Positions 937 to 42,960 of a stretch of DNA of 64,000 bases are shown here, one piece after another. Location of the stretch: assembly GCF_964204645.1 (NCBI RefSeq), contig NC_134025.1:2237001-2301000 (forward strand), written 5' to 3'. Within the stretch, counting starts at the first letter, position 1; each line of letters starts with the position of its first letter. The position numbers and the translations under genes were made by a program. The notes beneath the pieces are model-generated. The model was not told the DNA's origin. It did not search any database and was given only the letters and a program-made list of their open reading frames with translations. Source of the stretch: Tubulanus polymorphus. Taxonomy: Eukaryota > Nemertea > Palaeonemertea > Tubulaniformes > Tubulanidae.

Positions 937-3900
937 CGTTTTTTCTTGCTCTAATTTGAAATCTATTCGTAAGGCGAAATCGGTATTCTTTTGACGCCAT
1001 GTAATTTGTAAGAATGGTCTGGTAAGATTGCGAACTGTACTGGCGCACGATCCAACCGCTGTGGCATAGTTCGGCAGAGTCAGAGTTGTGAGTTTCGTCA
1101 CGACCTATCGTGCAATTTAATGAAACCGTAAATTAGCAACTAAAGTAGCATTTTCAGGACGAACTTTCGGAGTTTTATTTTTACCTTATCGTTTTCTTTA
1201 GCTTGATATTTGATATCGAAACTGGCTTTCATTGTCGCTCTCAGACAAACTCGACCGCCCTGTGTAAGAGCGAATACGGGTACACCAACCGGAGATATTG
1301 TCGTTATTTGAGCTGCAGAAAAAGATGTATACATATTATTATTAATCAGTATTTCAGCGGTTAGAAGAGAAGGCGGTCAATTTGAGAGAATCTTCTCGAA
1401 TAACTGCCGTAGAGACTGGGGGATAGACAGGGAACTTGTAAGATAAGGAAGAGGATAGGAAGTAAATCCGTTTCGCAGCTGACGCGCCTCACATCAGCCG
1501 AACACCGATCGATCTAAGCACAACTCATCCGTTTCTACGTGTGCGATATTTCAAACTGTAAATATCTGTTTATCTGGCGATTCACTTCATCGTCCTCCCT
1601 CACACACATATATATTCATATAGATTTTTACGCCAGAGAATAGTGATGAAAATGTCGATAATTCGCCTGTATAATTTTCGATCGTTTTGTTATTTTGTGT
1701 TCAGCTGAAATTCACACATAATCCGATAAATAACCGCAGAGACAACATCGAACGAGCGAGAAATAAAGCAGACATTGAACGAATCGCAGAATAAAAGCGA
1801 TCAGATGCAAAAACAACATAACATTAGCAAGCACAGAAACGAAAAGCAGGATGATAACAGAAACAGGAGAGGTTTTTACAAATTTTACCCGGTTTTATTG
1901 GTTCCGTTGTGTTAGTAGCATTTACACCAGGTTTAATACCGTCCAATTCGGTAACTTTACCTAGATATATAATTGATAATATTATGATTATATTCTGTAA
2001 ACGGTTATTATTGTTATTAAGTGTTTGTAATGTGATTACCAGCGGCAACAGGTTCCCAACTATTTCTTTCTAACCAACAAGTAGAAATCAAAAATGTTTG
2101 CATATATCGGAATCATTTGGATATGTCAAAATATTTGGATATATCAGAAATATTTAGATATAGGTTGTAAAACTAGCCTATATACAACCTTGTCCCAAAT
2201 AGAATACAATGTATATGATATGATATGATATAACGAACAGATTTTCAGGAGGTTCCACTGTTTTAAGTATTTTGAATATAGGACTGGAGAGTAGTACGGA
2301 AGCGATAAGGGGCCTCGAGATGTCGCGTTCCAACTCGACAAGTCGCCATATTTATGTCGATATATCGCGATATATCGCGTCAAGTCGACATGAATATGTC
2401 GTCATATCGTGACGTTTTCACGACAAATTTCGCTTTTTTGCCCATTTTCCACGGGAAAAGCCGTCATTTGAAGACACGTCTAAATGTAAGACGAGGACGC
2501 CAGTGATATGACGACTGAGTTTCAAGTCGTCATGAATATGTCGACTTGTCGCGAGGAAAGTGGTCGAGAAAACGAAATATGTCGTCAAAACGTCACGATA
2601 TATCGACATATTCGTGTCGACTTGACGCGATATAACGCGATATGTCGACATAAATATGGCGACTTGTCGAGTTGGAACGCGACATCTCGAGGCCCCTTAT
2701 CGCTTCCGTAGAGTAGGTTTTATTCACGCATGATCACGTGAATTCTCATTCGATGGCTAAACTTTTAATACTCGAACGTTCGATTTATTGAATTAAAATT
2801 TGATTCCGTGGCCCAATATTCCGTATGAGCCGAGAATGATAATCTATTTTCGGGTAGGATATTTGTATCGATGATTGACGCAGTTCGCGAAACGAATGAC
2901 TAGAAAAACAAATCTAATTCCAGGGATCCGTAAACCTGCATCGATTATCCGTATAAACCATTGATCTCTCAGCGCTCACATATAACTCATTAACTCTTGA
3001 GTTCACACTTCCCGGTTGCGATCGCAGCACGCCGCGCACAGTTGATGATAGAAAGCAAATTAAGCTCTTATTTGTCGCGTATTAGTTCGAGTTGATCTCA
3101 TCGGAAATACGATCAATCCATCAAATAAATAACGAACACGCGAGCGAGATATTCACCCGAGTTTCATTCGCTCGAATAAACCGACAACCTGCTGTTAATC
3201 ACTAACCACCGCTTCGAAACTGATACAACAGCACTGTCATTTTATAATCGTTTAGAATCAGTATCTAAAGCTTGCTAATTAGGAGTCTTTACTCGCTCGA
3301 TGGAACCCCACAATCATAAGACCAAACGGGTTGTTTCTAACGTTTCGGATAGAATACTTCTCTACCCATCAAGCGAAACGATTGATAAAATGAGTTCGTT
3401 TTTCTTATGACCTTCTAAACTTATTTGATAGCTACAGGTATTAAACATTGAAAGTATGGTTTAGTAAAAACCCAGGCTTAGGAAAGCTTTTGACTTGGTC
3501 TCGCTGAATTGCATTTGTTACACGATGATTCGATTTGTGAATTAATCAGACAAATTGTATACAAAATGACTCGATATTGTAATATTTCAGTGACGCGCAG
3601 CTCAATTCATCATATTTATACCATAGAATTCCCATCTAGAACCGAATAATTAATGAACACAGGCCATTTATGACATGGCGAGCGGACAGAAATGGCGTTT
3701 ATATATAACTGTACCCGATGGGATAATTTGTAAATCAATTTACAATATTAGATGGAACTTCTCCCGCAGAGCTAACCCCTTACACTGGATAGTAGATACT
3801 GTAAAATATGATACAATTTGTGAATATCCCCGCATCAAAAGAATTTATATAAGTGTCATCTGTAAAAATCAATTCGGAAAGATTGTCCATTAACGGTGCA

Positions 3901-6859
3901 AGAAATCTGAAACGACTTACATCCGGTTTCCATGGAGATTATAAACTGAGGTAAAATAGTTTAGCGTTGAGTGAGAGATTGACGAACAGCTTGTGAAAAA
4001 CTGGCCGTGAAAAACTGATGATCTAATTTCTGTCTGAATATTGTCAGATGTGATGAACCGATTTGATTCATAGAATTACCCTGAATATGTCGCACGTATT
4101 TTCTAGTTATCACCGCTTTCAAAGACTTTGAAAGACTTCAAATCATTCTCTCAAATATTGCCTGAGATTCTCTATTGATACGAAGGGTTCTACTGTATAT
4201 CCTTCGAGGGTTCTTCAGCTTGTCTCCCAGGAAAAAATCTTAAAGGTTAGTGAAAGAACTTATTTGTAGGGTTCTTGAAGAAATCCCGTGAAAGGCTCTT
4301 TGAAAAACCATTCTATCCAGAGTTCTTTGGGAGAACCCTTTGCAATATTCTCAGGTTCTTCGCGATGATAATTCATTTTTATATACCCGTTCTTGTTCCA
4401 TTTAGTTTCAAGTTTTAGGCGTCCCGCATATTTTGGGGGTGGTGACGGTGGAATATGATTCGGTGTATACACTTGAATTAATGCGTATGTATGAACAATC
4501 ATTCTAAATATTGTCACATATACATATATATATTACATATATATATTCATGTAATAGAGAAGACTTTGAAGTATCCTCAGAACAGACACGGATAGCGAGA
4601 TTGTAAATCGATGCTATATTTTGCTTGCGGCATGTAGTCGACTATCTTAACAACGCTTGCACCTATCTTCAACGGTTCTTCGATTTATTCTATTGTATGC
4701 TCATCTCTCGGCCTTTAAATATTTCAGAATTGACAAGAAGTTTTCCAACGTGCGAACGAATGGTATAGCAATCTTTGTCGTGCGATGACCGTTCGCGATT
4801 TGGGATGGGACAAGTCGTATTATCCCAATCAATTAGACTCATCGTCAATAATCGTCAAGAGGAGGTTGAATCAAGGGTCAGCAAATGATTACATTTTATA
4901 TTTATCGGCTTCAATCTAACGAACAGGTTCCAGTAATGGTCGAGCTACAGATCCACTTCGAATGTAGTTTTTGTAGTCATGAAATCAAAAGGAATATACA
5001 GAGTACGATGTGTTGTTGTTGTATCGACTTGCTTGCCAAAGACTGTTCAGTTTTGGTGAAGTAGTTATGCTTCATGAGAATCAGACAGCTGTATCAATGA
5101 GACATAATTCATTGTACTGTTTCATCTCTTATGCTCATATAATTCACGCCGCGTTCATCCAACTAGTTCCAAATCTCTAAACAAATCAACAACTGCGAAA
5201 TGATAACAGATTTTCTGTAGGCGAAATATTTGCGATTTTGAGACCTCCAAATATATAAGAAAAGGCACGCATAACAATATATATAAAATCCAGTCGTATT
5301 TGAGCTTGAAATTGAAATCAAATCCATTGTTTTGTTTATCTTGCTTCGCGTCGTTCGGATCTTGTTTGCAAAGACAATCCTATATTGGTTTGATCAATTC
5401 AAACCTAATGACGGGACGTGTTGCCTGCGCACTGAAAACAGTAAGCGAGACTGGGAACCTACTTGGATATGACTCATCGCAAAAATGCCCCAAAACGATC
5501 GAAAACAAAATTGAAAACCTTGACCCAGTTGCACAGTCGTGGCTTGAGTCCAAAAGTGTTCTTAAATCTTAAGACTGGTCTTAAATTGTTAGATTAGCTA
5601 TAGAACTAAGTTGGTCTTATGCGACTTATGCAACCAGCCCTATGGTCTCAGCTAAGTTGAGCTCGAAACTAATTTGATATTTTTTTCAGAATGGCGATAC
5701 AATCGATCTTACAGACCGGTAATGATGGCGAAGCTGATCGAATAATCCACGACATACATCATTAATCAGATTGATCGTTAATCAAAGCTTAGAAACAAAT
5801 TATAGACCTTTATTAGTTGACCATGGTTTATAGGATCATCACGGAATATATATGCAGAATCTGCAGGGTCGATCAAACAATCAATTTCGTAACTGACATT
5901 ATTTGTCTATTCGGGTCATTAGATGGCGAACAAGCTTCCATTTATTAATGAGATGTCGATTTTCATTGGAAAAAGACCAATCCCTAACAGAGAACATTAC
6001 TTTATATCGTCGTTACTGCTCTATTGTCACAAAATGCGAATGATATATGCCGTTTCAATCGAGCTATTCGGCACCTTTTCAATATATATCGAGGAATTGA
6101 AAGCTGAATGAATAATTGAAATATGGGATAGACTATCGGACTGGATATCGAGCGATCTGCTAACCGATATATAAATTTTATAGTAGTTTCGTTTATACGG
6201 ATATTCGATGAATAGTTTGTGAATGTAATTTCTACAAAATTCCTTTTATCTTTAACATAAATCTTTCAGCATATGCTTTCAGCACTTTCAGCATATCGAA
6301 AATTATCAACTTGTCAATATGTGCACCACTGACACTGATGGCATCACTTCCGTTAGTCCCAGTTATCGGTTACTGGACTATTGTGACCTTGATTTAAACA
6401 TGAACCTTTCGTAATTCATGATTTCATCAATTTCCGCATGTTTTGCATTTTCTAAATCAGTTTCAATTTGTTAAAAGTTAGGCATTTCTCATTTCTATCA
6501 ATGTGAGCTCAATAATCTAGTTTTTGTTACATTATTCTAACGCCAATTTAGACTGAAGATATTCCTGGAAAAAAAGAATATACTCAAGCTCTCTTTCAAA
6601 AACAAACTTTTATCAAAATTGAGTAACTTCGTCTGGTTGAAACAAGAATCTCATTCCAAATCATTTGAACGTAATATCTCTTTTCCCTCAAAAACACTAC
6701 TGCTGCATATACAAATATCATGGCAACAAATTGAGAACGGAGATGAATTTTTGCAAAATGAAATCGTTAATGTTTTGATATATACAATTGAAATAAAAAA
6801 CTTAACTTACCCAGGAAAATGATAAAGGAAACAAGGATAGAGCGAACGGAAGCCTCCAT
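937..6859 (-). CDS. LAMP-like lysosome-associated membrane glycoprotein, 5' part (partial gene)
   Basis: Four exons in order: 6859-6811 (ATG), 1960-1889, 1312-1185 and 1104-937. All have GT-AG borders and compatible phases (1, 1, 0, 0). The first exon encodes an N-terminal signal peptide (MEASVRSILVSFIIFLG). The second encodes a short Thr/Asn-rich stretch with N-A-T and N-T-T glycosylation sequons. The third and fourth resemble the LAMP luminal domain: a 'GRVCLRA' start followed by a beta-strand 'SFDIKY', then 'GSCAS', an N-L-T sequon and an 'ITW' strand. The two cysteines fit the first LAMP disulfide. Family proteins are lysosomal or endosomal type I membrane glycoproteins. The rest of the luminal domain, the transmembrane helix and the tail should lie left of the window or were not found. 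Intron 1 is about 4.9 kb and carries a MITE. The family call is by resemblance; an additional small exon inside intron 1 is possible. Confidence 0.6.
2297..2708. mobile_element. 412-bp foldback MITE with about 140-bp inverted arms
   Basis: The element starts CGGAAGCGATAAGGGGCC and ends with its exact reverse complement. The two arms (about 2297-2435 and 2570-2708) match along roughly 140 bp with fewer than ten mismatches. A TA dinucleotide lies on each side (2295-2296 and 2709-2710), as expected for a TA target duplication of Tc1/mariner-type MITEs. It has no coding capacity; open frames in it are by-products of the palindrome. It sits in intron 1 of the LAMP-like gene. Confidence 0.85.
2711..6810. 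other. Long intron 1 of the LAMP-like gene
   Basis: This AT-rich stretch has no exon that I can support on either strand. It holds one copy of a GGGCC-ended MITE (5522-5640) and short direct repeats of a GGTTCTT motif around 4195-4340. The open frames in it (for example 5300-5572 and 5923-6111) show no family resemblance or splice context. Confidence 0.5.
5522..5640. mobile_element. MITE with GGGCC ends, copy 1
   Basis: It starts with a GACCCAGTTGCACAGTCGTGG-type terminus and ends with the inverted form (CTTATGCAACCAGCCC). The internal text is rich in ACTTAAG/CTTAAG-like motifs shared with the copies at 9963-10094 and 17452-17575. It has no coding capacity. Confidence 0.6.
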
Positions 6860-24685: not shown

Positions 24686-25597
24686 TTTAACTTCTTTTTT
24701 TCGATGAAAAATGGCAACTGGGCCAAGAGCCGGACTCGGACCCTCTTCAACCCCTCGATCTGCCCCTGCATAAGTCAAACTAGATGTGGTCAAAACTGAC
24801 AGAAGAAAATATCTTGATGAGTGAGATGAATATAGAGATTTGCATTAGAAATCAATTTTTTTGAGGACTGCCCAACAGCGAAGTCTCAAAAGCGATAGAG
24901 AACGGCAACCAGTCTACTGTAGAGCTGACACCTGCACTGGCACGTGAGGTTGTTGCCACCACCCAGCTTCCAGGTGGTGCTCTGGTATATTATTTACATC
25001 ATGCCGATTTATTGAGTCGTTGAGTGGGGTCTGTCTGCAGAGTGCGCAGGGGGCCGCTGCGGCCCCCTGCGCTCAATGGGTGCGCAGGGGGCCGGGTATT
25101 GTAAAGTGAGAACTGGTATGTGATGCTAGACGAAACGATGATTTTTTAGCAATAATGCAGAAATTTATTTTAACTCGCTTTTTTAAATAGAAAAACAATT
25201 AAGCTGATTTAATTTTGATTTTTGAGCTAGAACTTTTATATATGCTTAATCATGTAATTCAAAATCGTAGATATAGGATTGATATTGTTACTATGAAAAT
25301 TAAGGTCAATCGCGCCGGGGGCCGTCCTCTACGTACATAACTCGGTTTTTTAAACTCCTGAATTTCCCATTCACCATGTCGTCGTTTTTCAACAGCAAAA
25401 AATAGTCGTCAAAAATAAGATGAAAGCTGAGAAAATGCGAGTTTCACTGTTCATTTATTTATTTGACATACATATTCGATTGACACTTAAACATCATAAG
25501 TATCAGAGGCGGCTGGATAATTGGTAATACATGTAAATTGAAGCTTACGTATCTTGTTGTACTGGATTTTATAGATCGCTTGATTTTATAGATCACA

Positions 25598-25820
25598 GAC
25601 TTAATAAAATATTTATACACATGGATATTATAGATCGCTTGATTTCTAATCTCGATATCTTTAATTTGTATCATAATACTTTCGATAATTGGCGATAACA
25701 TGATAATGATAATACATACATTTCTCTGACTTAATAAAATATTTATACATATGGATATTATAGATCGCTTGATTTCCGATTTCAATATTCTTAATCTGTA
25801 CCGTAATATTTTCGAAATAG
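25598..25820. repeat. Direct duplication, about 90-bp unit, 130-bp period
   Basis: Two copies starting GACTTAATAAAATATTTATA (25598 and 25728) continue through ATGGATATTATAGATCGCTT to a TTCGA end, with scattered differences. They lie in the left part of the composite element. Confidence 0.75.
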
Positions 25821-25962
25821 ATTATATACGTCAACTAACGACTTTGCTTCAGTCCGTCGGCATATTGCGTCACTGTTTTCATAAGGTAGTCCATTGTAAA
25901 TGCTAACGATGTAGACGAGAGCTTCCTTGTGTAAAACGTCATTCGAATAATAACTGGATAAG
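25791..25962 (-). CDS. Exon-like ORF inside the composite element, unknown family
   Basis: A good acceptor (CATTTCAG) at 25963 opens a 57-codon frame to a TAA, beginning LSSYYSNDVLHKEALVY and ending NLFRKYYGTD. The composition looks protein-like, with balanced charged and aromatic residues, rather than like repeat noise. I do not recognise the family. It could be the last exon of a captured gene or a transposase remnant. No upstream exon was found before the satellite array begins at about 25.99 kb. Confidence 0.25.
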
Positions 25963-25989
25963 CTGAAATGAATCATCAGGAAATTAAAT

Positions 25990-26640
25990 TTAACCCTAAC
26001 CCTGCGCACCTATCTAGCAGAAGACAAGTATAACTATTTACGCTATTAAAACGCGGCCCCCTGCGCGCATATCTAGCAGAAGACAAGTAAAACTATTTAC
26101 ACTATTAAAACGCGGCCCCCTGCGCACCTATCTAGCAGAAGACAAGTAAAACTATTTACACTACTAAAACGCGGCCCCCTGCGCGCATATCTAGCAGAAG
26201 ACAAGTAAAACTATTTACACTATTAAAACGCGGCCCCCTGCGCACCTATCTAGCAGAAGACAAGTAAAACTATTAAAACTTTTAAAACGCGGCCCCCTGC
26301 GCACCTATCCAGCAGAAGACAAGTAAAACTATTTACACTATTAAAACGCGGCCCCCTGCGCACCTATCCAGTAGAAGAAGTAAAACTTAGTAAAACTATT
26401 AGTTCAGAATCAAATAGAAATATAGCGGCCCCCTGCGCACCTATCTAGCAGAAGACAAGTAAAACTATTTACACTATTAAAACGCGGCCCCCTGCGCACT
26501 TATCCAGCAGCAGACAAGTAAAACTATTTACACTATTAAAACGCGGCCCCCTGCGCACCTATCCAGCAGAAGACAAGTAAAACTATTAAAACTTTTAAAA
26601 CGCGGCCCCCTGCGCACCTATCCAGCAGAAGACAAGTAAA
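25990..26640. repeat. Left satellite array, 59-bp unit, about 11 copies
   Basis: Units begin around the core GGCCCCCTGCGC, followed by CACCTATCCAGCAGAAGACA and an A/T-rich half (AGTAAAACTATT...). One unit is disrupted at 26380-26425 by AGAATCAAATAGAAATATAG, a string that recurs at 31930-31950. The array edge starts with TAACCCTAACCCT, a short telomere-like string. Confidence 0.95.
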
Positions 26641-26643
26641 AAT

Positions 26644-28587
26644 ATGATCAAGTACATTAAAATGTGTTATGTTGACCCTAAATCGTTGATAAAAAGTAAT
26701 GGATTTTTAACAGTCCCTTTTTCCCTCGAACGGGGAGTTAGACAGGGATGCCCGATGAGCGCGTTGCTATACGTCATCATCGCTGAAACTTTATCAATAA
26801 AAATCAGGCGTAACGATGAGATTAAAGGAATTAAGTTGCCTGATGGCAGCATTTGTAAAACGAAACAGTTTGCTGATGACAATACCTTAACTTTAACCAG
26901 CACCAAATCAATTGAGGAATTATTCAATGTTTTATCTGATTTCGGAAAAGCTTCCGGTGCTAAAGTGAACCGCCAAAAAACGGAATGTTTATGGATAGGC
27001 GCCTCCAAAAATAGAACTGATACACCTTACAATCTTAAATGGTCGAACAAACATATAAAAATATACGGCATGTATTTTGGACATGATGACATAGCTAAGT
27101 TGAACTGGGAACGAAAAGTCAGCACAGTATCGAACATATTAAATCAATGGCGTCAGACAAAACTATCCTACAAAGGAAAACGCGTAGTCATAAATTCATT
27201 TATTCTTCCTATATTATGGTATATATCAGAGATATATCCAATACCTAATACCTACATGGAAAGGATTCAGAACCAAATTAATAATTTTCTTTGGTCATAT
27301 GGAAAACACCATGTTAGGGCAGAGGTTATTTATAAACCTTTACGACAGGGTGGCCTAGCAATTAACAATATAAACTGTAGGATAATAGCCCAGAGAGTGC
27401 GAACAATTCTATCTGAAATAAGGAAAGAAACGAAATGGAGACCTTTGCTCAATTTCTATCTCGAAAAAATACTCGGACCTGGCTGGTCATTACATTCCTT
27501 GATCAACGTAAATTTCGTAAATAAAGTAACTAATAACTTGTATTATAAAAACCTACTATCTGCATGGAAATATGTGATAACTCTTACCGAACCACAATTA
27601 TCAAAGCACGATATAAAAAACAATTTATTATTCAATAACCCTTCAATAACTTTTAACGGCAAAACTTTAAACTACCCAGAGTATTCAGAAATAGGACTAA
27701 CAAATGTCAAAAATTTATTCGATGAATACGGAAATTACTTGGAACTAGAAAATTTTACACCAATTCTCGAAAACGCTAGAAAACATAAAAGGATATACGA
27801 GGCGATTCCCAGAGAATGGCGCGTCATCCTTGGTGACGAAAGCTTAGCCGACACTAAAAAATCAGCTTTTACGGTAAAATTCCACAATAAACAAAGACTT
27901 TTCATTAGTTTAACAATGAGGGAGTTATATAGTTTCATTATACATAAGAAATTCGGGCACATTGTCCCGATAGGACGAAGGAAAATCGAAGATTTCCTCA
28001 ATGCAAACGATATCGACTGGGCCCAAATTTGGGAAGATAGCTATCACCCGATTATAGACAAAAAATTGAGCGATATGCAATGGCGTTTCCTACATGATTC
28101 GTTAGCAACAGCAAACAAACTAGTAACATGGCAAGTTTCAAATGATCCAACCTGTAAGGTATGCGGTCGAGCGGCCACAAATAGACATGTAATAATTGAA
28201 TGCCCGGCAGCAATTGAACTTTTTTCTCGATTCCAAACTATAATTGACCAAATAGCGGAACAGCCAACTAACTTAGATAAACGAGTAATATATTTCGGCT
28301 TGCCTAGACAGATAATTAGAAATTCAAAAAATAGACATATATGTAATTATGTAATAACAGTTCTAAAATGGACACTGTACAAAAATCACCGTAAATCATG
28401 TGACGGGGAACAGCAAATAGATCTAAAAAACTATGCTAGGAATTATATTGTAAATAGATTAAAACAAGAGATTGCACACAAAAAGAACATACATTTGTGG
28501 ACCCAAAATGAATCCCTAATTAAAATAACTGAAATGGAATTGGTAATAAATGAAATACTACTCGATACAATTTATGATATACTGTAA
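26644..28587 (+). CDS. LINE reverse transcriptase, C-terminal part (Tx1/L1-like)
   Basis: An intact 647-codon frame encodes the second half of a non-LTR reverse transcriptase. Visible parts are the RT block RGVRQGCPMSALLY (residues 30-43), the catalytic box FADD (76-79, instead of the usual YADD), the following GxKVNxxKTE block, and a C-terminal cysteine-histidine knuckle C-K-V-C...H...C near residue 500. The endonuclease and the first RT blocks are missing because the copy is 5' truncated. The ATG at 26644 is therefore an internal methionine. The absence of stops or frameshifts suggests a recent insertion. Assignment to the Tx1/L1 group rests on the C-terminal layout and is tentative. Confidence 0.85.
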   Translation: MIKYIKMCYVDPKSLIKSNGFLTVPFSLERGVRQGCPMSALLYVIIAETLSIKIRRNDEIKGIKLPDGSICKTKQFADDNTLTLTSTKSIEELFNVLSDFGKASGAKVNRQKTECLWIGASKNRTDTPYNLKWSNKHIKIYGMYFGHDDIAKLNWERKVSTVSNILNQWRQTKLSYKGKRVVINSFILPILWYISEIYPIPNTYMERIQNQINNFLWSYGKHHVRAEVIYKPLRQGGLAINNINCRIIAQRVRTILSEIRKETKWRPLLNFYLEKILGPGWSLHSLINVNFVNKVTNNLYYKNLLSAWKYVITLTEPQLSKHDIKNNLLFNNPSITFNGKTLNYPEYSEIGLTNVKNLFDEYGNYLELENFTPILENARKHKRIYEAIPREWRVILGDESLADTKKSAFTVKFHNKQRLFISLTMRELYSFIIHKKFGHIVPIGRRKIEDFLNANDIDWAQIWEDSYHPIIDKKLSDMQWRFLHDSLATANKLVTWQVSNDPTCKVCGRAATNRHVIIECPAAIELFSRFQTIIDQIAEQPTNLDKRVIYFGLPRQIIRNSKNRHICNYVITVLKWTLYKNHRKSCDGEQQIDLKNYARNYIVNRLKQEIAHKKNIHLWTQNESLIKITEMELVINEILLDTIYDIL

Positions 28588-28671
28588 GCTTTGTATACTA
28601 TGTACTACGTATATTATTAAATACTATGTATAGTATGTTTGTGTATTTTCCGACATGAATAATGTATTATT

Positions 28672-28713
28672 GATATATATATATATGTATATATATGTAT
28701 ATATATATATGTG

Positions 28714-28758
<45 letters not shown>

Positions 28759-28822
28759 GTATGTATATATATATATATATATGTGTATATGTATGTATAT
28801 ATATATATATATATGTATATAG
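28672..28822. repeat. TA/TGTA microsatellite in the LINE 3' region
   Basis: About 150 bp of alternating TA with TGTA interruptions follows the RT stop codon by 85 bp. Many tandem open frames here are artefacts of the repeat. Confidence 0.95.
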
Positions 28823-29267
28823 ACTTGTTAATTCTGTAAATGTGTATATATTGAAGAATGATAGACTATTTGATAACGATGTCTAGTATGTAAATAGGAT
28901 TCTGTACCGATAACTGTATATAATTTTTCAAAATTTTAAGAAAAAAAACAAAAGCAATATAAAAAAAAGATAAAAAATACTGAAAAAAAGGAAAAAAATG
29001 TTAAAAAAGAACGAAAATTTTTTATATCCTATTTGGAAAGAGTAGAACAACCTAAAATGAAAAGAGATAACAGTTATTTAAGAACTTTCCCTCTCGGTCG
29101 TAAGGTGTTCTTACACCTAATACACGGAGCTAGAGGTGATTTTTTTTCTTTTTAAACTGCATATTCTCGCTACAATCATGTAACAATTATTCAGTCCCCC
29201 ACATGACTCCAGTGGGTGCGATGTAGATGTAATGGAGCTTTCCATTAGATAATAAAGTAAGATATAA

Positions 29268-29300
<33 letters not shown>

Positions 29301-29305
<5 letters not shown>

Positions 29306-31697
29306 ACTATTAAAACTTTTAAAACGCGGCCCCCTGCGCACCAATCCAGCAGAAGACAAGTAAAACTATTAAAACTTTTAAAACGCGGCCCCCTGCGCAC
29401 CAATCCAGCAGAAGACAAGTAAAACTATTTACACTATTAAAACGCGGCCCCCTGCGCACTTATCCAGCAGCAGACAAGTAAAACTATTTACACTATTAAA
29501 ACGCGGCCCCCTGCGCACCTATCCAGCAGAAGACAAGTAAAACTATTAAAACTTTTAAAACGCGGCCCCCTGCGCACCTATCCAGCAGAAGACAAGTAAA
29601 ACTATGGTAAAACTATTAAACCGCGGCCCCCTGCGCACCAATCCAGCAGAAGACAAGTAAAACTATTAAAACTTTTAAAACGCGGCCCCCTGCGCACCTA
29701 TCCAGCAGAAGACAAGTAAAACTATTAAAACTTTTAAAACGCGGCCCCCTGCGCACCCATCCAGCAGAAGACAAGTAAAACTATTAAAACTATTAAACCG
29801 CGGCCCCCTGCGCACCTATCCAGCAGAAGACAAGTAAAACTATTAAAACTTTTAAAACGCGGCCCCCTGCGCACCTATCCAGCAGAAGACAAGTAAAACT
29901 ATTAAAACTTTTAAAACGCGGCCCCCTGCGCACCCATCCAGCAGAAGACAAGTAAAACTATTAAAACTTTTAAAACGCGGCCCCCTGCGCACCTATCCAG
30001 CAGAAGACAAGTAAAACTATTAAAACTTTTAAAACGCGGCCCCCTGCGCACCCATCCAGCAGAAGACAAGTAAAACTATTAAAACTATTAAACCGCGGCC
30101 CCCTGCGCACCTATCCAGCAGAAGACAAGTAAAACTATTAAAACTTTTAAAACGCGGCCCCCTGCGCACCAATCCAGCAGAAGACAAGTAAAACTATTAA
30201 AACTTTTAAAACGCGGCCCCCTGCGCACCTATCCAGCAGAAGACAAGTAAAACTATTAAAACTTTTAAAACGCGGCCCCCTGCGCACCTATCCAGCAGAA
30301 GACAAGTAAAACTATTAAAACTTTTAAAACGCGGCCCCCTGCGCACCAATCCAGCAGAAGACAAGTAAAACTATTTACACTATTAAAACGCGGCCCCCTG
30401 CGCACTTATCCAGCAGCAGACAAGTAAAACTATTTACACTATTAAAACGCGGCCCCCTGCGCACCTATCCAGCAGAAGACAAGTAAAACTATTAAAACTT
30501 TTAAAACGCGGCCCCCTGCGCACCTATCCAGCAGAAGACAAGTAAAACTATTAAAACTTTTAAAACGCGGCCCCCTGCGCACATATCCAGCAGTAGACAA
30601 GTAAAACTATGGTAAAACTATTAAACCGCGGCCCCCTGCGCACCAATCCAGCAGAAGACAAGTAAAACTATTAAAACTTTTAAAACGCGGCCCCCTGCGC
30701 ACCTATCCAGCAGAAGACAAGTAAAACTATTAAAACTTTTAAAACGCGGCCCCCTGCGCACCCATCCAGCAGAAGACAAGTAAAACTATTAAAACTATTA
30801 AACCGCGGCCCCCTGCGCACCTATCCAGCAGAAGACAAGTAAAACTATTAAAACTTTTAAAACGCGGCCCCCTGCGCACCCATCCAGCAGAAGACAAGTA
30901 AAACTATTTACACTATTAAACCGCGGCCCCCTGCGCACCTATCCAGCAGAAGACAAGTAAAACTATTAAAACTTTTAAAACGCGGCCCCCTGCGCACCCA
31001 TCCAGCAGAAGACAAGTAAAACTATTTACACTATTAAACCGCGGCCCCCTGCGCACCTATCCAGCAGAAGACAAGTAAAACTATTAAAACTTTTAAAACG
31101 CGGCCCCCTGCGCACTTATCCAGCAGAAGACAAGTAAAACTTAGTAAAACTATTAAACCGCGGCCCCTTGCGCACATATCCAGCAGAAGACAAGTAAAAT
31201 TTAGTAAAACTATTAAACCGCGGCCCCTTGCGCACATATCCAGCAGTAGACAAGTAAAACTTAGTAAAACTATTAAACCGCGGCCCCTTGCGCACATATC
31301 CAGCAGTAGACAAGTAAAACTTAGTAAAACTATTAAACCGCGGCCCCCTGCGCACCTATCCAGCAGAAGACAAGTAAAACTTAGTAAAACTATTAAACCG
31401 CGGCCCCTTGCGCACATATCCAGCAGTAGACAAGTAAAACTTAGTAAAACTATTAAACCGCGGCCCCCTGCGCACCTATCCAGCAGAAGACAAGTAAAAC
31501 TTAGTAAAACTATTAAACCGCGGCCCCCTGCGCACCTATCCAGCAGAAGACAAGTAAAACTTAGTAAAACTATTAAACCGCGGCCCCCTGCGCACCTATC
31601 CAGCAGAAGACAAGTAAAACTTAGTAAAACTATTAAACCGCGGCCCCCTGCGCACCTATCCAGCAGAAGACAAGTAAAACTTAGTAAAACTATTAAA
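29301..31697. repeat. Right satellite array, 59- then 60-bp units, about 40 copies
   Basis: The unit is the same as in the left array. From 29301 to about 31130 the period is 59 bp, with the variant halves TATTAAAACTTTTAAAAC and TATTTACACTATTAAAAC. From about 31140 to 31697 the period is exactly 60 bp, with AACTTAGTAAAACTATTAAA. Variant blocks recur at a distance of 946 bp (29455 and 30401), which is a higher-order repeat of 16 units. Long minus-strand frames of repeated peptides here are not genes. Confidence 0.97.
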
Positions 31698-32113
31698 CCA
31701 TGTCATTTTCCATCATCGTACTGAAACTTCGCAATTCTTTATCTAAGAAACTAACGTCACATGGAATTAGGGGTACAAACTAGGGTTAATACACTGTTAC
31801 ACAGTATAAAACAAAGAGATTAATTAAGCTGTGATTAAGATGTGATGCACACTAATATACAGCATGAAGACAGTTACAAACTTAACAAATCTTAATGATG
31901 AGAGCAAACTAGGGCGTAATACAATAGTTAAGAATCAAATAGAAATATAGCGGGGCAATTAATCAACAACTTAACAATGAAACAGTAGATCAAAAAGTAA
32001 ATTATGTACCGTATCAAGTAGGTTTAACAGAAATGCAAAGTAATCTATTAGAAACAAGCTTTTTGAAAAACCCTTGGAGTCAATAACGCAGTTTTATATT
32101 TTATGCTCCATGT

Positions 32114-32175
<62 letters not shown>
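32114..32175. repeat. (CAG)n trinucleotide repeat, about 20 copies
   Basis: Pure CAG/CTG repeats run through 32175, followed by AGATAGATAAAAATTC. The same AGATAGATAAAAATTC string recurs after a second short CAG run at 32213-32226. CAG is already present in each satellite unit (CCAGCAG), a possible seed for the expansion. Confidence 0.95.
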
Positions 32176-32176
<1 letters not shown>

Positions 32177-32545
32177 TAGATAAAAATTCACGCGGCCCCC
32201 TGCGCGCCTCTCCAGCAGCAGCAGCAGATAGATAAAAATTCGTAGATTCGGCGGAGTATTTTGATAAATAATATATACTCTGTATACTGTTCTTAGTGTA
32301 CCATTTTATGCGCATCTCGATGGTAAAATCATAAACTGGTTGATGGTGGTTATGCATTTGATTTATTGGTAGAAGTAGGAGTAGTTTCATATCGCATACT
32401 ACTATGTATATGTATTGCCGTTTCGTAAATAATATCGTGTGGTTTTCACTTTATTAAAGCGGCCCCCTGCGCGCGGCCTCCTGCGCACGGCCCCGTGCGC
32501 ACTCTGCAGTTTGATATGACTCGAGAGGAGTCTTTGTAATGTGAG

Positions 32546-38161: not shown

Positions 38162-38608
38162 CTGGACACCCCTGTACATCCTTTATTCAACATCAGGACA
38201 ACTCTGAATCAGTATCAGTAATTACTGGGTTTGAACCCAGGACACCCCTGTACATCCTCTATTCAGCATTAGGACCACTCTGAACCAGTATCATTTATTA
38301 CTGTGTTCGAACCTGGGACACCCCTGTTCATCCTTTATCCATCACGACCACTCTGAATCACAGCAATTGATGGGTTTGGACCCGGGATACCCCTGTACAT
38401 CATCTATTCAGCATCAGAACCACTCTGAATCAGTATCAGTAATTACTGGGTTTGAACCCGGGACACCCCCGTACATCCTCTATTCAGCATCAGAACCACT
38501 CTGAATCAGCATCAGTAATTATTGGATTCGAACCCGGGACACCCCTGTGCATCCTCTATTCAGCATCAGGACCACTCTGAACCAGTATCAGTAATTACTG
38601 GGTTCGAA
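38162..38608. repeat. 76-bp tandem array, six copies, with B-box-like core
   Basis: Units run GGACACCCCTGTACATCCTC, ATTCAGCATCAG, ACCACTCTGAATCAG and TAATTACTGGGTTCGAACCC. The third copy is shortened. The core GGGTTCGAACCC matches the tRNA T-arm/B box (GGTTCGANNCC). The array abuts the MITE on the left. GAGACGATCAGGA occurs just left of the MITE (37859) and just after the array (38612). Confidence 0.9.
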
Positions 38609-39304
38609 CCTTAGAGACGATCAGGAGGTCATCGGCTACATTTACCGAAAGCATGAAGAAAATAAAAACAATGATTTTTACAAGAGAAACACAAATCTCA
38701 TGTAATTAATCATGTAATGTTAACACCAAAAGAAGGATACTGGGTGCCACTTTTAAAGGCAAAGTTAACTATTCAGGACTCTGCTTCTGTATATAAAAAT
38801 CAAACCGATCATCAGTGGAAATATCAAATTAGCGGGTGGTGAAATATATATGCCGTCACAAAATATTGCCGAAGGGCACTTAAATTTTAGACCGTACGAA
38901 CAATGTATTGGGCAATACGGTCTGGATCCGCCCCTGATGGCTTTAGTGACAATCAAAAAGATTGCTAATTTCGTAATTACTTTTCGGCAGCTCAACACTC
39001 GCTTCTAACCAGTCAACAAGTGTTAGTGTGTCCGGGTTGAAGGTAAGCTGTATTGCCAATATTCGATTATCATGTTTTCCGGACATCCTCGTCTCCGCAC
39101 AATGTTGGTGGAAATATTGGTTTGAAACAAGAGGTGGATTGCAAAATAACAAAAAACCACTGACTGGTGAACTAACAAAGTTCAGACAGAGTAGCTAAAC
39201 AGATAAAGAATTTCAATCATATTTATTCTCATACAGTGTACAACAATCATACAAAATGCCAGGTTTGTGCTCGAGGAATTATAACGTAAGCTCCTCAAAC
39301 ACGT

Positions 39305-42419: not shown

Positions 42420-42960
42420 CTTTTATTCTGCCTAATTCTGATTTTGGAAATAACTATATTGTTGAAGATAATTTTACAATATTTGGTCTTTTTTTAATGT
42501 AACTAGTCCGAAAGTTTACAATGTTTAATAATTTTGTCTAACTTCAATTTTTTTGGTCGTTTTCACCGTTTAAATAGTCGAAGCACATATTAAGTGACTG
42601 ATTGGGGTTTACTTTTTTCTGCCTAATTTAATACATCGAGATTTTGGAAATAACTATATATTACAATATTTGGTTTTGTTTTCATGTAACTAGTCCGAAA
42701 GTTTACAAGGTTGAATAATTTTATCTATTTTTTTCTGCCTAATTTAATACATCGAGATTCAGGAAATAACTATATTTTACAATATTTGGTCTTTTTTTCA
42801 TGTAACTAGTCCGAAAGTTTACAAGGTTGAATAATTTTATCTATTTTTTTTCTGCCTAATTTAATACATCGAGACTTTGGAAATAACTATATTTTACAAT
42901 ATTTGGTCTTTTTTTCATGTAACTAGTCCGAAAGTTTACAAGGTGGGAGAATTTTGTCTA
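42420..42960. repeat. Tandem array of about 115-bp units, about four copies
   Basis: Each copy has TTTTTTCTGCCTAATTTAATA, CATCGAGATT, GGAAATAACTATATTTTACA, ATATTTGGTCTTT and CATGTAACTAGTCCGAAAGT. The last three copies are nearly identical; the first is diverged. Confidence 0.85.

Follow-up and report, generated by a model that had tools for sequence, protein, structure and literature searches.

A probable family of non-autonomous DNA transposons carrying its own satellite in the nemertean Tubulanus polymorphus

Tx1D/Tx1L of Xenopus is a DNA element with inverted ends and internal tandem repeats, accompanied by a nested long interspersed nuclear element (LINE) that targets it. In Drosophila virilis, the element Tetris has no apparent coding capacity and carries tandem repeats with a 37-bp stretch as in its outer end, and these repeats became a satellite (PMC4079207). 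In Galileo of Drosophila, which belongs to the P superfamily, secondary binding sites for the transposase are said to lie in the tandem repeats of at least one element (PMC3573991), and the arrays of both Galileo and Tetris have been proposed to provide extra transposase sites (PMC3573991, PMC4079207). Here, we analysed a 64,000-nucleotide stretch of the Tubulanus polymorphus genome (contig NC_134025.1, positions 2,237,001 to 2,301,000; hereafter, the window), in which a first-pass annotation had described an inverted-ended element built around a satellite. The whole element (7501 bp, positions 25022–32522 of the window) is one of eight two-ended copies in the assembly. Because 8-bp target duplications accompany the copies and the satellite is confined to them, we consider it highly probable that they constitute one family of cut-and-paste DNA transposons that is non-autonomous and carries its own satellite. 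The transposase would be supplied from elsewhere, the array may have been seeded from near one end, and the repeated core motif may be the transposase site.

Tetris resembles the present family in that a coding partner was not found and the unit number varies, but its arrays lie within inverted repeats as long as 1735 bp, consist of AT-rich units of 220 bp and also occur outside the element (PMC4079207). In contrast, the present family has short ends, an internal array in one orientation and units of 59–60 bp that were found only inside the element. A satellite with all units in one orientation, located inside short inverted ends and not in long inverted repeats, does not fit a foldback type like Tetris. 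Galileo likewise has tandem repeats that expand and contract among copies, and some of its copies have non-matching flanks, but it differs in its 7-bp duplications, in the position of the repeats inside long inverted repeats and in its known transposase (PMC3573991). The earlier statement that no described family has this layout was thus too strong, since both Tetris and Galileo carry end-related tandem repeats. The family itself looks new, as judged from the open PubMed Central literature and not from Repbase entries, but a layout of this general kind has been described before in other animals.

Copies, ends and target duplications

All sequence searches were made in one assembly, which comprises 77 contigs and 267.8 Mb. 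The element begins with GAGTGGGGTCTGT followed by CTGCAGAGTGCGCA at the left and ends with TGCGCACTCTGCAG followed by TTTGATATGACTC at the right. The 14-mer CTGCAGAGTGCGCA gave 18 matches in the genome, compared with none for the reversed control; 16 of them formed eight inverted pairs, 1.5–7.5 kb apart, and two were single right ends. The matching inverted ends reported in the first-pass annotation recur as pairs, and the outcome that it had named as refuting, ends that occur independently of each other genome-wide, was not observed. The eight two-ended copies lie on seven contigs and are 7501, 5246, 1656, 5904, 2925, 3163, 5654 and 1537 bp in length.

All eight pairs were fetched with their flanks and lined up. 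The 8-bp target duplications, which the earlier annotation had suggested looking for, were exact in five of the eight copies (L049 and L051–L054) and agreed at seven of eight bases in L050. In the other two copies, displaced duplications were detected by eye: that of L048, ACTCATTC, agrees at all eight bases and is displaced by four extra bases on the left, and that of the window copy, GAGTCGTT at 25014–25021 and GAGTCTTT at 32528–32535 (both + strand), agrees at seven of eight bases and is displaced on the right by the 5-bp filler GAGAG (32523–32527, + strand, by eye). The flanks, compared over 1.2–1.5 kb per side in the eight copies, have nothing in common except dispersed repeats. The largest of these, approximately 400 bp long, is found to the right of both L049 and L052 but at unequal distances from the border, and for no two copies does a flank match meet the border of the element at a shared position. 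These target duplications in unrelated flanks show insertion at 8-bp staggered cuts, and the DNA transposon suspected from the window alone is supported by the eight two-ended copies. The copies are alike up to positions 25022 and 32522 of the window copy, and their flanks are not; this limit and the target duplications indicate that the bounds first given, 25035–32509, were too short by 13 bp on each side.

The outer parts of the copies are nearly identical. Over all 28 pairs, the first 146 bp differ by 0–3 mismatches, and L053 has a 1-base indel there. When L054 is left out, the 21 remaining pairs differ by 0–5 mismatches in the last 330 bp, not counting indels; the last 163 bp of L054 are 99.4% identical to the window copy. 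From this near-identity, we infer that the eight copies are young.

Read inward, each terminus has the form GAGT....T....CTGCAGAG, followed by TGCGCASGGGGCCG. In the window copy, 27 of the 40 outer bases agree between the two ends, indicating the presence of terminal inverted repeats, the left one consisting of GAGTGGGGTCTGT and CTGCAGAGTGCGCAGGGGGCCGC (25022–25057, + strand) and the right one located at 32488–32522 (− strand; reverse complement GAGTCATATCAAACTGCAGAGTGCGCACGGGGCCG). Copies of a core motif are repeated in both ends. The right end holds three tandem 14-mers (32460–32501, + strand), while the left end holds one as half of a palindrome and then another (25082–25094, − strand), oriented as the terminal one. 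The palindrome, read directly from the sequence, is 29 bp in length (25044–25072) with 14-bp arms, a 1-base loop and two facing core motifs. The first 99 bases of the left end gave a better fold than all of 200 shuffles (z = −4.55); in the best fold, the palindrome itself is not closed, its second arm pairing instead with the core motif that follows (to 25094). Of the near-perfect hairpin previously described at this end, the palindrome is therefore present, but the best fold uses a different pairing. The folds of two satellite units (z = 0.10) and of the right end, equalled by 24 of 200 shuffles (z = −1.15), were unremarkable. A 12-base match, GACTGCCCAACA, is found on either side of the window copy, and 23 bp separate the end of this copy from a reading frame that matches a TYW2 N-terminal domain.

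Apart from the two-ended copies, we detected right-end-only stubs in L055 (255 bp), L056 (40–41 bp), L060 (35 bp), L061 (47 bp, 85%) and L058 (a relative of 117 bp, 81%); another relative, in L057 (79%), is without the last 42 bp. In L056 (approximately 1488–1528), the right end stands alone between perfect 8-bp copies of GTCATTTT, and its inner break is located at a GCGCAC palindrome; by coincidence or otherwise, GTCATTTT is also the 8-mer that flanks L051. No left-end-only copy was detected with a 16-base left-end pattern (one mismatch allowed), the ten matches of which were the eight elements and two sequences without further likeness.

The satellite array and its core motif

In the window copy, the satellite is split by a nested LINE into block A (26000–26641, + strand; repeat blocks called as 26000–26645), mostly of 59-bp units, and block B (29299–31697, + strand), with approximately 40 units of 59–60 bp. 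Further towards the right end lie an (AGC)n run and one progenitor-like unit that contains this core (32114–32260, + strand; core at 32193). When three mismatches were allowed, a 41-base part of the unit gave 263 matches in the genome, all of them inside the eight elements, with 49, 17, 5, 70, 28, 21, 54 and 19 matched units per element. The estimate of about 50 units from the window is in good agreement with the 49 matches in this copy, the array is seen to travel in the element, and the second refuting outcome named beforehand, the satellite without the ends at most loci, was likewise not observed. The 12-mer GGCCCCCTGCGC gave 287 matches, compared with four for the control; 280 were placed in the eight elements, one in a right-end stub and six elsewhere.

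All units lie in one orientation, with the motif oriented as in the right end, and the 251 units of 50–70 bp include 67 distinct ones. The order of units at the ends of the array is common to some copies and differs inside; for example, the arrays of L048 and L054 both start RLYZIG.EF. In addition, the array starts at position 177 in L048, L049 and L054, which have a shortened left part, but at 819–1079 in the other five copies, suggesting that arrays descend with the copies. Because both unit order and the shortened left part are common to some copies, it seems that each array was passed on together with its element and that units were later added and removed. In four of the five copies with a long left part (L047, L050, L052 and L053), the array opens with a unit fused to TAACCCTAACCC, which is like two telomere repeats (25990–26010 in the window).

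The core of the unit is identical to the 14-bp motif that recurs at the ends, and a repeat close to one end may therefore have given rise to the array. In L048, four progenitor-like units with longer AGC runs are located beside the right end. As to the function of the motif, its repetition at both ends is a better argument for a transposase binding site than is its constancy. We regard the chances as about even that the motif is bound by the transposase and that expanded arrays add binding sites.

In the mechanism that we propose, a transposase from another element would recognise the ends GAGT....T....CTGCAGAGTGCGCASGGGGCCG together with the 14-bp motif copies just inside them, and this putative enzyme would excise the element and insert it at 8-bp staggered cuts. 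The satellite would have arisen from an end-proximal unit with the same motif and would be carried as cargo, its length probably being altered by gain or loss of whole units via unequal exchange or gap repair after excision. The right-end-only stubs may represent one-ended or aborted excision, with loss of the remainder.

Coding partner, superfamily and rival explanations

The first-pass annotation had proposed a check for an autonomous partner with the same ends, and none was found using three end patterns: a 26-base pattern (two mismatches), the 16-base left end described above and a looser 21-base pattern. The 26-base pattern gave 29 matches for both ends (control 18), of which 21 were family members and stubs and eight were left over; the left-end pattern left over two of its ten matches (control 2), and the 21-base pattern 20 of 36 (control 7), the other 16 being family members. 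No inverted pair within 20 kb was seen among the leftover matches when the lists were compared by eye. We inspected two of the eight, both of the two and four of the 20 leftovers, respectively. The reading frames of L062 and L063 (leftovers of the 26- and 21-base patterns) look like host genes, L064 and L065 (left end) showed no additional end features by eye, and of L080 and L081 (21-base pattern), the former had no recognisable element end and the latter Gypsy-like frames by eye; all six were rejected as partners. Within the window copy, the open reading frames of at least 90 amino acids (aa) are those of the LINE and short frames, none of which is transposase-like by eye.

The 8-bp duplication agrees with the lengths known for three superfamilies: KDZ (Zisupton) and hAT elements create 8-bp duplications, as does the P element, with 7–8 bp in the P superfamily. 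However, hAT ends follow the rule YARNG, commonly CAG, and the first base in the present family is G at both ends, which does not fit this rule. Twenty matches to KDZ were detected in the genome, and no listed end of the 21-base pattern lies within 20 kb of one of them, as judged by eye from the lists. Merlin elements likewise have duplications of 8–9 bp, and some families combine very imperfect inverted repeats with tandem repeats, but their ends start with GG (PMC8101967), whereas those of the present family start with GA. Consistent with this difference, L078, the only inspected Merlin copy with clear termini, starts GGCGCTATTGCAC. The Merlin domain DDE_Tnp_IS1595 gave 43 matches in the genome, and none of the six loci inspected had family ends at up to four mismatches, only unconvincing matches being detected. 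We conclude that the superfamily is not Merlin, nor, by the target-duplication criteria considered below, is it Helitron or Polinton.

Some observations weigh against the reading of the family as satellite-bearing transposons mobilised through the core motif. No transposase with matching ends was detected by the three end-pattern searches (no search aimed at hAT or P transposases was made), and no empty site was seen, because only one assembly was used. The displaced duplications of L048 and the window copy were recognised only after the fact. L054 differs from the other copies by 27–44 mismatches over the last 330 bp, because it is without part of this region. Outside the core, the progenitor and the satellite unit resemble each other weakly, an equal score being reached by 12 of 1000 shuffles, so seeding of the satellite by the end-proximal unit with the same 14-bp motif is plausible, not proven. 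Moreover, the first conservation figure for the core was biased, since units had been selected by the core. When the units were anchored on their other half, the core (13 bases) was exact in 228 of 274 units, had one change in 35 and was different in 11, but CAGCAG-AGACAAGTAAAACT is also constant, differences being found at a few positions common to unit types. The core is therefore not clearly more constant than the rest of the unit, and constancy does not single it out.

One rival explanation accepts the transposon but assigns the core to a host DNA-binding protein, or regards the array as a product of slippage, without a role in transposition. It is compatible with a non-autonomous, satellite-bearing transposon except for the binding step, and we regard it as a real possibility, though not a probable one. 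The constancy of the other half of the unit fits this explanation, and the core has CAGGGGGC in common with the animal CTCF motif. Against it, the CC of that motif is absent from the core, and repeats of the 14-mer are found at the very ends of the element, the sites to which transposases bind. Spread of the array by itself, via extrachromosomal circles, unequal exchange or segmental duplication with the ends incidental, would account for array lengths ranging from 5 to 70 matched units, but not for the confinement of every unit match between two ends, nor for 8-bp duplications in flanks that have only dispersed repeats in common; we consider it extremely unlikely.

Polinton/Maverick elements are abundant in this genome, and an origin of the family from them by deletion is suggested by the location of two end fragments: the 255-bp right-end piece in L055 adjoins a row of Polinton-like frames, and in L058, the distance from the 81% end to another such row is 1.3 kb to its first frame and 2.5 kb to its DNA polymerase B frame. 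Such closeness is expected by chance, given 1486 first-look ATPase candidates compared with a handful of family ends. No convincing second end was detected in 19 kb of L058 and L059, where the scan gave one 13-base left-end match with three mismatches, judged to be due to chance. Polinton/Maverick elements create 6-bp duplications, not the 8-bp duplications observed here. We therefore consider this origin very unlikely, and Polinton was also rejected as the coding partner. As for rolling-circle elements, Helitrons are not known to create a target duplication, and an 8-bp duplication is likewise not known from the Helentron carriers of oysters. The palindrome close to one end and the internal tandem array recall those carriers, in which satellite-like arrays are dispersed in non-autonomous elements (PMC7492417), but a carrier of this type is contradicted by the 8-bp target duplications and the inverted termini and is scarcely credible.

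The nested LINE, other repeats and the meaning of the family

The LINE nested in the window copy (26642–29298, + strand; approximately 2.66 kb) is 5'-truncated and has a poly-A tail. It is flanked by AAGTAAAA (26634–26641 and 29299–29306; by eye, and ambiguous with the poly-A), and its open reading frame (26644–28587) encodes RVT_1 and zf-RVT domains, the best solved relatives including LINE-1 ORF2. The layout is like that of Tx1D/Tx1L, but none of the eight other LINE copies sampled (L066–L073, chosen from the best matches for their 3' junctions) lies in the satellite, and targeting of the satellite by the LINE was therefore rejected. Small nuclear RNA (snRNA) sequences were detected 3' of the LINE above the Rfam cut-off at three of the eight junctions: U1 in L066, U4 in L070 and U5 in L069. 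U5 was just under the cut-off in L068 and L073, the flanks of which are alike, so that they perhaps represent one event; L067 has a U1-like start by eye only, not reported by Rfam at E 0.5, and no snRNA was detected in L071 or L072. The snRNA targets of transposons listed in 2015 are U2, U1 and U6 only, in the part of that source available (PMC4640811), and no LINE aimed at U1, U4 and U5 was found among the papers listed by a literature search. Should the LINE indeed prefer several snRNA genes, this would be a new finding. A 46-bp piece of the element (32304–32349, + strand), present at ten other listed places in the genome, is perhaps the 3' end of another LINE, as judged by eye.

Other repeats were noted at these loci and in the genome at large. 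L048 contains, at element positions of approximately 1700–3870, a nested insertion of approximately 2 kb, the two halves of which form long inverted copies; by eye, it may be a further transposon without coding capacity. In L055, a separate 31-bp tandem array of approximately 2.1 kb (2169–4273) adjoins the Polinton-like frames, and the window holds two more tandem arrays, at 38164–38610 (period 76 bp) and 42613–42960 (period 116 bp). The Polinton/Maverick load is very high: the ATPase candidates are of the A32 type, the 150 that were scored, of the 1486, are 96–100% identical, many without an internal stop, and they seem by eye to be located mostly in the inner parts of large contigs. L059 has a 655-aa polymerase B frame, seemingly with an intein-like insert (by eye).

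For the family itself, one unlikely scenario is that an end motif bound by the transposase was turned into a one-orientation internal satellite of 5–70 copies, with which the element out-competes its coding partner for the enzyme or soaks the enzyme up. If this were true, the partner would become rare or be lost, the satellite carriers would stay young, and the single right ends would result when the enzyme mistakenly cuts at another core.

The principle of a satellite derived from a transposon has already been described in Drosophila. The Tubulanus family is a small and apparently recent case: its eight copies are nearly identical, its satellite is found in this assembly only within them, and a progenitor-like unit still lies beside the right end, and it therefore offers a clean setting for the birth of a satellite inside a transposon. 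The same setting also bears on whether extra copies of an end motif help or hinder transposition.

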